Origin: Thalassotalea piscium
GTDB lineage: Bacteria; Pseudomonadota; Gammaproteobacteria; Enterobacterales; Alteromonadaceae
Length of the DNA stretch: 64,000 bases
NCBI RefSeq assembly: GCF_030295935.1
Contig: NZ_AP027362.1
Coordinates: 2,480,001 to 2,544,000 of the forward strand
Reading direction: 5' to 3'
Positions 23,483 to 32,949 of this stretch are shown in pieces; within the stretch, counting starts at the first letter, position 1, and each line of letters opens with the position of its first letter. Made by a program: the position numbers and the translations under genes. The notes beneath the pieces were generated by a model. That model was not told the DNA's origin. It searched no databases and saw only the letters and a program-made list of their open reading frames with translations.

Positions 23483-24961
23483 CTAATCAATAGCTAATAG
23501 ACTTCTATACTCCTCAAATGAAAACCTATCAGTCATTCCGCTAACGTAGTCAATCAGTAGGCGCGATCTGTAATACATTTCTATAATTTTATCTTCATCA
23601 GTTACGACTGCTGCATCGTGTAGCCTTTTTACGCTATCACAATAATAGCGCTTATGTTTATTAGATAATAAATGGTACAACCTAGTCTCTATAGGAAAAG
23701 ATTTTAAAGATTCGCTTTTTGAAAGAGATTTAAAGTTTTCATAATCTAATTTGAGAAGTGGTGTATATATATCAAGTAACCCTGATATGATAGCATGTCC
23801 TTGCAATTCTGATCTTTCTACCTCCTTGGCAGAAAACACATACTTAAAAGCAACACCCTTTAACACTTCTGTTGCCAAATTATATTCGTCATTACCATCT
23901 AATAAAGATTCATCAAGTGTTCCATTGAAAACTGATTCATGATTGGAAATGTATCGTTCAGAAGCATAATTGGCTAGATCATTTACTAAGTTAGTTCTTA
24001 AAGTAAGTATATAAGAATGGTTCTTATTATGAGATTCCGATTCATATCTTGCATATGCCTTTTGCGCAAGGTTAGGAAGATAACGTTTTTCAACTACCTC
24101 GTTATCTACTTCATCATCATCTAAGTAAGATTCCCAAATACTAACGATAGCTTGATGAAGTTGGTCTACGTCCAAAATACCTTTATCCAAAGCATCGTCT
24201 AAATCCGCAATACAGTATGATATGTCATCCGCTGCTTCCATTATGTAAGTAAGTGGAAATCTATTTCCTGATTCAATGCCTAAACTACTTTGTAGTTTAT
24301 TAACGTATTCTTCTTCAGAATAATAATAGCCGGGTTTTTTCTTTCTATATTTATACGATTCAGTTTTTCCTGTCGGCCTCTGCTCATAGGCAGGTCTAGT
24401 ATATTTAATTAAACAAGCTACTTGAGTAAATGACAAGTTCAAGTCCTGCAAGCTATGTAAAATTCGAATGGCTTGGGCATTACCTTCAAAGCAAAGTAAG
24501 TCTTTTAGTAGTTTACTATCCTTAACTTTATCCCCGAATTTTTCTGTAAAGATATTTAACAATGACGTTCCTGACCACATGTTGATAGCTTCTTCACCAA
24601 AATGCCCAAAGGCTGGGTTTCCAACATCATGAAGTAAACATGCTATTTCTATTGCGCTGGTAAATCCGTCTTTTTTATCTTCTAACCCTAATTCTCTTAA
24701 CTTACCATCATTATCAAGTTTTTTTAATACAAGCTTAGCTATATACCTACCAACTTGTTGTACTTCTAACGAGTGAGTTAAACGACTTCTTACTGCCGCA
24801 TTCGATTCTAAAGGAAACACTTGAGTTTTTTGTTGAAGCCTTCTTACCGCAGCAGAGTTGATTGAACGGCCCCGGTCTGATTCCATTTCCTCATCGAATG
24901 TTTTTTTCGGAGCTGTTGATGCACGAAAGCGTTCATGTTTTAGCTTTTCGTTATAATCCAT
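23483..24961 (-). CDS. dgt: dGTP triphosphohydrolase, E. coli Dgt type
   Basis: This 492-residue enzyme hydrolyses dGTP to deoxyguanosine and triphosphate. It matches the E. coli Dgt subfamily in length (505) and motifs: RGRSINSAAVRRLQQKTQVF then RLTHSLEVQQVGRYIA with H63, and CLLHDVGNPAFGHFGEE with H111, D112 and H120 of the HD site. All metal ligands are present. It lies inside the accessory region, next to the recombinase module and in the same direction, about 100 bases downstream of it. A resident dgt of a different subfamily is broken at 31.9 kb. dGTPases lower dNTP pools and can protect against phage, so it may be defence cargo or a replacement for the broken gene. Confidence 0.92.
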   Translation of the reverse strand: MDYNEKLKHERFRASTAPKKTFDEEMESDRGRSINSAAVRRLQQKTQVFPLESNAAVRSRLTHSLEVQQVGRYIAKLVLKKLDNDGKLRELGLEDKKDGFTSAIEIACLLHDVGNPAFGHFGEEAINMWSGTSLLNIFTEKFGDKVKDSKLLKDLLCFEGNAQAIRILHSLQDLNLSFTQVACLIKYTRPAYEQRPTGKTESYKYRKKKPGYYYSEEEYVNKLQSSLGIESGNRFPLTYIMEAADDISYCIADLDDALDKGILDVDQLHQAIVSIWESYLDDDEVDNEVVEKRYLPNLAQKAYARYESESHNKNHSYILTLRTNLVNDLANYASERYISNHESVFNGTLDESLLDGNDEYNLATEVLKGVAFKYVFSAKEVERSELQGHAIISGLLDIYTPLLKLDYENFKSLSKSESLKSFPIETRLYHLLSNKHKRYYCDSVKRLHDAAVVTDEDKIIEMYYRSRLLIDYVSGMTDRFSFEEYRSLLAID

Positions 24962-25066
24962 ACTGCTGTTCCCTTAATATTGTTATTATTCAATAATTAT
25001 AAATTTACAATTCCAACAAACATTAGGAATGTTTGTTCAATACCTATATCTGTTGGGCAAATGTTG

Positions 25067-25588
25067 TTAATTTAAACCTAGCTTTCTTTTTACATCAAGG
25101 GGTATGTCATTCAACATCCTTCCATACAGCTCTTCACAAGTATTCTGAAGTAATTTTTTATTTTCTTTTGTTAATTTAACCGTACTTGCTTTCAACTCTT
25201 CCTTAGTTTTGTGCTGATACCCCTTGTTAGGCTTATTGATTCGGTCATATTTCGCTTTATGAAGTTTACTGTTTACGCCATTAAAGTAAGTTATTAACCC
25301 TGCTGAGTATGTATTGCTGTTGAACAATGGCTGAGGTTTTTTTCCAACTCTTCTAGCGACTTCTACTTTTGAAATAGTCCAATACTTTTTATATTTATAA
25401 CTACCTTTATCCGGATGACCACTAATGAAGCGTAACTTTTCCATTTTAAGATTGTTTATTGCTGTGTAAGCTTCTTTGGCAGTTGGATGAAGCAAAATCC
25501 ATGTTAAATCTTTATCAACTTCTATACCCTTAGGCTCTTGAATCCTTTCTTCTTCCAGTAAAAAGTCATCGTAGTAATTTATACTCAT
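25067..25588 (-). CDS. Small partner protein of the recombinase module (GmtX/TnpC-like)
   Basis: This 173-residue protein has an N-terminal acidic segment, a middle part (TWILLHPTAKEAYTAINNLK and YWTISKVEVARRVGKKPQPL) that could bind DNA, and a basic helical end (NKGYQHKTKEELKASTVKLT then KENKKLLQNTCEELYGRML) likely to form a coiled coil. Small proteins of this shape accompany tyrosine recombinases in Tn554-like elements (TnpC) and in Gamma-Mobile-Trio modules (GmtX). It overlaps the preceding recombinase-like gene by one base (TAATG), so it is translationally coupled. The family match is from memory of architecture only. Confidence 0.6.
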   Translation of the reverse strand: MSINYYDDFLLEEERIQEPKGIEVDKDLTWILLHPTAKEAYTAINNLKMEKLRFISGHPDKGSYKYKKYWTISKVEVARRVGKKPQPLFNSNTYSAGLITYFNGVNSKLHKAKYDRINKPNKGYQHKTKEELKASTVKLTKENKKLLQNTCEELYGRMLNDIPLDVKRKLGLN

Positions 25589-31837: not shown

Positions 31838-31920
31838 CTATTTCTCACACCACGTCTAATTACATACTAATTTATCTTTCAAACAATGGATACATTTTTA
31901 TATTTATTAGTGGGTGTCTG
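31838..31920. other. Junction between recombinase module and broken dgt gene
   Basis: These 83 bases separate the recombinase start codon from the first codons with dgt similarity. They are AT-rich and encode nothing recognisable. The outer end of the element and its crossover site should lie here, at or just before about 31921. The matching other end is not visible, so the exact attachment sequence cannot be defined. Confidence 0.5.
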
Positions 31921-32949
31921 TTTTCCTTTGGTCATGGTGGTGAAGTGGCGCTACATTTTATGATGCGCGATCACGGTGGCTTTGAAGGCAACGGTCAAAC
32001 CTTGCGTATTGTGTCTAATTTAGAGCCTTTTAGTGAAAGTAACGGGATGAATTTAGCCCGAAGAACCCTACTTGGCTTAATTAAATATCCCCAAACACTT
32101 GAGCAACTTACTGCCAAAAAAACACCAAATATTCCAACCTCGTTTCGACAATTAAAAGCCAATGACTGGCACCCGCCTAAGGGTATTTATCAAGATGACT
32201 TAGATACATTAAACTGGATATTAGCACCTTTATCTGAAAAGGATAAAGCCCAATTTCAACAAATTAATGTGCGCAAAACAGGCCATAACAAAACCATTTA
32301 TAAGTCGCTTGACTGTTCAATAATGGAATTAGCTGATGATATTGCCTACGGGATTCATGATTTGGAAGACGCCATTGTAACAGGCGTAGTAAGGCGAGAA
32401 GATTTTGAGCAACACGTTATTAATAAACTTCAACATTTAAATGATGAATGGCTACAGCAAATCAGTAATCATTTATCAAAACAACTCTTTAGCCAGAAAA
32501 CCTATCAGCAAAAAGAAGCGATTGGCGGTTTAGTTAATTACTTGATCACCGCTATTACACTCGTTGATTTAAATGAAACTGCAGGCACCAAATTTGAAGA
32601 GCCACTGTTACGTTACAATGCACAGCATCCAAAAGTTGCCCGACAAGCATTACAAATATTTAAAGACTTTGTTTTCGACTTTGTGATCAAACGCACTGAA
32701 ATTCAACATCATGAATACCGCGGCCAACAAATAGTAATGGAGTTATTTGAAGCGCTAGCTTCAGATCCTATGCGTTTATTACCTAATAATGCCCGTAACC
32801 GTTATCAACATGCGGTTGAAAATGGATTAAACAGTTACCGCGTTATTGCTGATTATGTATCAGGTATGACTGATGACTTTGCGACGAATCTTTATCAAAG
32901 TTTATTTGTGCCAAGTAATACTCGTAATCACCACGACTTACATATTTAA
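31921..32949 (+). pseudogene. dgt: dGTPase (dgt), 5' third missing
   Basis: Similarity to a dGTPase of the shorter (about 440-residue) subfamily starts abruptly at [20 protein letters not shown] and continues to the end (MELADDIAYGIHDLEDAI, and DYVSGMTDDFATNLY near the C-terminus). The region that should precede it, with the first histidine ligand and the HD pair, is absent; upstream in the same frame lie only low-complexity codons from the junction. The enzyme cannot be active in this form. The break coincides with the end of the recombinase module, so the element most likely inserted here or moved by recombination. The rest of the gene is not seen elsewhere in the window. Confidence 0.85.

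Follow-up and report, generated by a model that had tools for sequence, protein, structure and literature searches.

Strand-biased circularizing integrative elements (SEs) are defined in the main text of PMC10214605 by a core of four genes in the order intA-tfp-intB-srap and by 13-19-bp imperfect inverted repeats around a 6-bp spacer; 697 tfp-srap blocks are reported there. In the recA mobile element (RME) of Vibrio cholerae S24, an island in recA carries a diverged functional recA (PMC4405046). GInts (ginABCD; PMC5385486) carry a recombination module of four genes at one end, vary in their cargo and are highly specific for their targets; the protein that lacks a catalytic motif is in third place (GinC), and insertion of GInts is, according to the authors, probably not fully inactivating. 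Gamma-Mobile-Trio islands, as Mahata et al. 2024 are cited in PMC12039261, occur in marine Gammaproteobacteria, share a signature set of three genes and carry defence cargo. Here we describe a mobile island that has cut a resident dGTPase gene, dgt, in two and carries an intact dGTPase of its own, and we compare it with elements that share its recombinase module.

The recombinase module and the ends of the island

The island lies in the left part of the window, the whole 64,000-nucleotide stretch of Thalassotalea piscium DNA (genome G000) that was analysed, and extends about 14.6 kb beyond its left edge. Its size of 46.5 kb compares with a median of 15.7 kb and a maximum of 58.5 kb reported for SEs in the main text of PMC10214605. 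Four core genes, in the order intA-tfp-intB-srap, stand at one end of the island on the minus strand, and the module recurs at 30 other loci. The first, intA (30563-31837), encodes a tyrosine recombinase of 424 amino acids in which R202, H349, R352, H390 and Y404 are conserved over 13 homologues. It is followed by tfp (28276-30603; 775 amino acids), in which no HxxR recombinase motif was seen; the motif is likewise absent among the residues conserved in an alignment of 30 Tfp proteins. The third gene, intB (25588-28275), encodes a large tyrosine-recombinase-like protein of 895 amino acids with R427, H664, R667, H692 and Y701 invariant in 13 homologues and a Cys cluster at the C-terminal end, and the fourth, srap (25067-25588; 173 amino acids), encodes a predicted auxiliary recombination protein. 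The core order was assigned from motif content and the RHRY residues of IntA and IntB by alignment; an AlphaFold model of IntB, with a mean pLDDT of 44.8, was too poor for fold comparison.

Searches of Pfam, NCBIfam, PADLOC and PHROGs gave no informative match to tfp, intB or srap, and the module proteins had no NCBIfam match except a weak Xer match to IntA. No relatives of intA were found in phage sequences and IMG/VR, and the three found on plasmids are all distant. On one Marinobacter plasmid (NZ_CP152381.1, locus L060), a related four-gene module stands beside an integron integrase, class A beta-lactamase genes and qnrVC1.

The intA-proximal end of the island, GTGGGTGTCTGTTTT (31910-31924), and its far-end counterpart, AACAAAACACCAC, are imperfect inverted repeats around a 6-nt spacer, CTTTGG, and are kept in eight dgt-inserted elements. 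The attachment core CCTTTGG, which includes the spacer, is found at 31925-31931 on the plus strand and again at the far end (G000:C1:2465433-2465439), as expected of an attB site split between both ends. The spacer is host-specific yet identical at the two ends of the element in each of three genomes, G000, G147 and G255.

By its core order, RHRY residues and ends, the island is a predicted SE, with SE-6283 and SE-6945 compared by their description only. The core order, the motif-less second gene and the imperfect inverted repeats with a 6-nt spacer are shared with these two elements, as are the strict target choice and marine gammaproteobacterial hosts that the main text of PMC10214605 describes; that text describes no element that carries a homologue of the gene it interrupts, and mentions neither dgt nor dinB. 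Two other identities were rejected. In GInts, as defined in PMC5385486 and the main text of PMC10214605, the motif-less protein is third, not second as in the island, whose order fits SEs better; moreover, the gene is here cut at its active site. No model named for Gamma-Mobile-Trio islands matches the module, which has four core genes rather than the three signature genes described in PMC12039261.

The remaining island cargo in the window (1-23482) comprises copper/heavy-metal efflux-type genes, regulators and an IS3-type insertion. A sensor-kinase-like ORF that follows a response regulator is truncated at the start of the IS3-type element (20246-21827; element ORFs 20686-20982 and 21015-21827). 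To the left of the window, the gene that closes the island at its far end, next to the dgt N-fragment, encodes a YfbR-like 5'-deoxynucleotidase (L026 3559-4161, minus strand, corresponding to G000:C1:2465559-2466161; NF003009, 215.8 bits); it is also present in G803 (100% identical) and in G1021 (68%), the latter a dgt element without a cargo dGTPase.

A split dgt gene and a second dGTPase

The ORF at 31708-32949 encodes a dGTPase reduced to its C-terminal two thirds, matching positions 105-426 of 426 of profile NF003701 and positions 103-425 of 425 of NF041026. Its dGTPase homology starts with FGHGGEV at position 31926, immediately past the intA end of the module, and on the strength of the profile match, the junction and a far-end fragment we annotate 31926-32949 (plus strand) as the C-terminal part of the resident dgt, of the anti-phage-type subfamily. 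The N-terminal third was located by sequence match 46.5 kb upstream and outside the window, at G000:C1:2465117-2465449, on the same strand as the C-terminal part; the fragment itself is annotated at about G000:C1:2465111-2465439. It is 74% identical to an intact relative and reads HDIGHPPFG before it enters the island. When both flanks were joined in a script, an uninterrupted dgt resulted, cut by the island at the active-site codons PPFG^HGGE of the HD-dGTPase motif.

An earlier note on this DNA, made from the window, had described dgt as having lost its N-terminal third to a mobile element exactly where the recombinase module ends. The truncation and its place stand, and the rejoined fragments and the CCTTTGG at both junctions confirm that a mobile element broke the gene; the N-terminal third, on the other hand, is displaced rather than lost. 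The note had also named an intact resident dgt as an observation that would count against its reading. In the G000 genome, TIGR01353 is matched by the two dgt fragments, by the cargo gene and by nothing else, so no intact resident dgt is present as judged by the dGTPase models searched.

The cargo gene, dgtE (23483-24961, minus strand), directly follows srap at a distance of 105 bp and is the candidate replacement gene. It encodes an intact E. coli-type dGTPase of 492 amino acids, with a score of 595.3 bits against the E. coli Dgt equivalog NF003429 (cut-off 405). Its metal-ligand and catalytic HD motifs align with those of E. coli Dgt structures (4x9e), and the protein is full-length and Dgt-like (4x9e, 6oi7); unlike E. 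coli Dgt, it is borne by a mobile element and stands in for a dGTPase of another subfamily. Against the NCBI model for anti-phage dGTPases, NF041026 (cut-off 400), dgtE scores 169.4 bits and the broken resident gene 424.8 bits, and cargo and target dgt are 22-24% identical. The earlier identification of the cargo enzyme as an intact E. coli-type dGTPase of a different subfamily thus holds, and the insertion exchanges an anti-phage-type dGTPase for an E. coli-type one. In those dgtE pairs that allowed an estimate of dS, dN/dS was about 0.05-0.13, which indicates that the gene is under purifying selection for a working protein. Around the core, the dgt cargos overall match 13-15 of 19 nt of the att site. 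There is no support for the view that the cargo dgt is immune because it has lost the att core, as dgtE of the window keeps CCTTTGG and 15 of 19 nt.

That dgtE could serve in defence by depleting dGTP when phages infect, with dgt as a target by coincidental site preference, deserves consideration. PMC12265719, citing Tal et al. 2022, notes that dGTPases can be anti-phage enzymes, the PADLOC dGTPase model matches dgtE at 213.8 bits, and restriction- or helicase-like genes occur in several of the SEs analysed here. Phage inhibition has been shown for the dGTPase of Shewanella putrefaciens, and E. coli Dgt is described as housekeeping (PMC12265719). It is to the equivalog of the latter that the cargo belongs, far below the anti-phage cut-off that the broken resident gene passes. 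The cargo gene also occupies a fixed slot, and defence would leave the pairings of target and cargo at dinB, yrfG, trmL and CLCA_X genes, described below, unexplained. We therefore regard a defence role as unlikely.

Related elements in dgt and in other genes

Relatives of the module were gathered from scans of order, family and genome contigs, and whole-genome searches spanned 1,617 genomes; a class-wide scan of 369 genomes found the window's own element alone. Close relatives occur in G147, Thalassotalea algicola, Alteromonas sp. KUL106, Vibrio salinus, G803 and G964; the relative in G1021, whose intA is 47% identical, is more distant. All eight dgt-inserted elements split the gene at the same codon (TIGR01353 position 89-91), in hosts that include Thalassotalea, Alteromonas and Vibrio, and in an IntB tree they form one clade with support of 100/100. 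An intact E. coli-type dgt fills the slot after srap in six of the eight, which belong to one clade and so represent few independent events; none of the 23 other elements carries it within the stretches searched. The target-cargo link that the earlier note suggested from a single locus is thereby upheld. With the same codon hit in eight genomes and the same cargo in the same place in six, the association of split and cargo is far beyond chance.

The two dgt-inserted elements that lack a replacement are those of KUL106 and G1021, and no intact dgt was found in either genome. Loss of dgt is therefore tolerated, and rescue is not obligatory. In KUL106 (L053 / L061), a natural null for dgt, the slot at the same dgt site holds a membrane protein gene and an ImmA/IrrE-like gene. 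The elements of the window and of G803 have identical dgtE genes and 100% identical IntB proteins, yet their hosts belong to different genera, which points to a probable recent transfer. In G964 (L063), dgtE is 97.6% identical to that of the window despite a far more diverged IntB, a contrast that suggests that elements have swapped the gene in this slot.

More distant relatives, inspected for a broken gene beside intA, lie in other genes. A split resident dinB and an intact cargo homologue were found in all nine dinB elements for which both ends were read. In these, an N-terminal fragment of the first ten or so codons, ending in IH[IV]DMDC, adjoins intA, with the remainder at the far end. The nine cargo DinB proteins are intact (349-360 amino acids) and 48-60% identical to the resident; they cluster in two clades of their own in a tree and are therefore not copies of their hosts' genes. 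At the cut motif, the cargo reads DMDA[FY][FY]VS and the host DMDC, a clearer difference than in the dgt cargo. Two further dinB loci were noted: in L077 (draft genome G1074), dinB is split and an intact cargo-type dinB lies on a separate contig, and L067 (G780) is a composite locus with several truncated dinB copies.

Three more target genes were each seen in one element. At L042, the intA flank is a yrfG-type GMP/IMP nucleotidase gene cut at DMDGT. The N-terminal fragment is found at a distance of about 47 kb, and in the slot behind srap an intact YrfG is encoded that shares 37-38% identity with the broken one. At L047, the cut in trmL follows PPNTGNI; the rest of the gene is 43.5 kb distant, and the element carries an intact TrmL (53% identical). 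At L079, the cut falls at HEWF in a CLCA_X-family gene whose two parts are on two contigs, and the intact homologue in the element (70-71% identical) reads HEYFH. In a separate case, L076 (G806), the module abuts the C-terminal part of an amidohydrolase-like ORF, and no homologue was found in the 67 kb downstream.

We then tabulated five gene families against all 31 elements, whose targets were assigned for all but about ten. The 18 intact copies all fall in elements whose target they match and none falls off the diagonal, a zero that is strongest where coverage is good, as only a few kb of cargo were searched in some elements. A matching intact copy was not found in three elements of known target, those of KUL106 and G1021 (dgt) and the draft L077 (dinB). 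The earlier note had held that related elements inserting elsewhere with no link to dgt would speak against it. Distant relatives do insert elsewhere; what fails is the absence of a link, as many carry a homologue of the gene they break. Carriage of such a homologue is a recurring SE trait and not a chance feature of one island. In the open-access literature searched, we found neither dgt nor dinB described as an SE target paired with cargo to match.

The homologue might instead be kept for the element's own DNA metabolism, serving dNTP pools or translesion synthesis during copy-out, independently of the broken gene. The genes dgt and dinB, like the recA of the published element, all act in DNA metabolism, and SEs are thought to move by copy-out, according to the main text of PMC10214605. 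All 18 homologues nevertheless match the target of their own element, and trmL, which acts in tRNA methylation, has no such role; we judge this explanation very unlikely.

Probable replacement of the target gene

The RME offers a published single-case precedent for replacement. Like the elements studied here, it splits a conserved gene and carries a diverged copy, in its case functional, at one end and an integrase at the other, with short inverted repeats (PMC4405046); the difference is that the RME is a single published case, in recA, whereas five further target genes are found here in SE-type elements. Its authors propose that the carried recA avoids mixed RecA filaments, and by analogy the homologue could serve to displace the host allele, by preventing mixed oligomers or swapping regulation, rather than to rescue it. 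Dgt enzymes are indeed oligomeric, but mixed dgt oligomers are improbable because target and cargo belong to different, highly diverged subfamilies, and TrmL and DinB offer no clear reason for such displacement. We hold allele displacement to be extremely unlikely.

We consider it probable, instead, that SEs home in on conserved codons of active sites and bring with them a substitute for the gene they break. In the window, the cargo dGTPase would accordingly be expected to compensate for the lost dgt, as judged from sequence comparison. Restoration by the island of the activity it destroyed, one of several options raised by the earlier note, is now the best supported of them, as related SEs show the same pattern at dinB, yrfG, trmL and CLCA_X genes; the activity itself we infer. 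In the proposed mechanism, the cargo homologue would take over the function destroyed by insertion. The target, because it is very conserved, would be available in many hosts and could be used at low cost. The different att-site sequence of the carried copy may help it to escape targeting, a step unproven for dgt. Since the main text of PMC10214605 reports that SEs do not leave a restored empty site, the host would come to depend on the carried copy, which would favour retention of the element.

We lean slightly towards target-gene replacement as a general SE strategy, in which each recombinase lineage would be fixed on the active-site codons of one conserved gene and carry a diverged, intact homologue on which the host becomes dependent. 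If this is true, an evolutionary switch of target would need a matching change of cargo.

In the usual view, elements that insert into protein-coding genes need harmless sites or rebuild the end of the gene. Here, conserved enzymes are cut at active-site codons and a full-length substitute is brought along. Replacement would account for the tolerance of such sites and for the retention of the islands by their hosts, as well as for swaps of housekeeping genes (dGTPase, DNA polymerase IV, TrmL and GMP/IMP nucleotidase) among distant relatives. It also calls for caution in reading cargo, as the gene that stands first in the cargo of such an element may be there for maintenance and not as an adaptive trait. 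The rule that we offer is that the target of an element may be predicted from its cargo.
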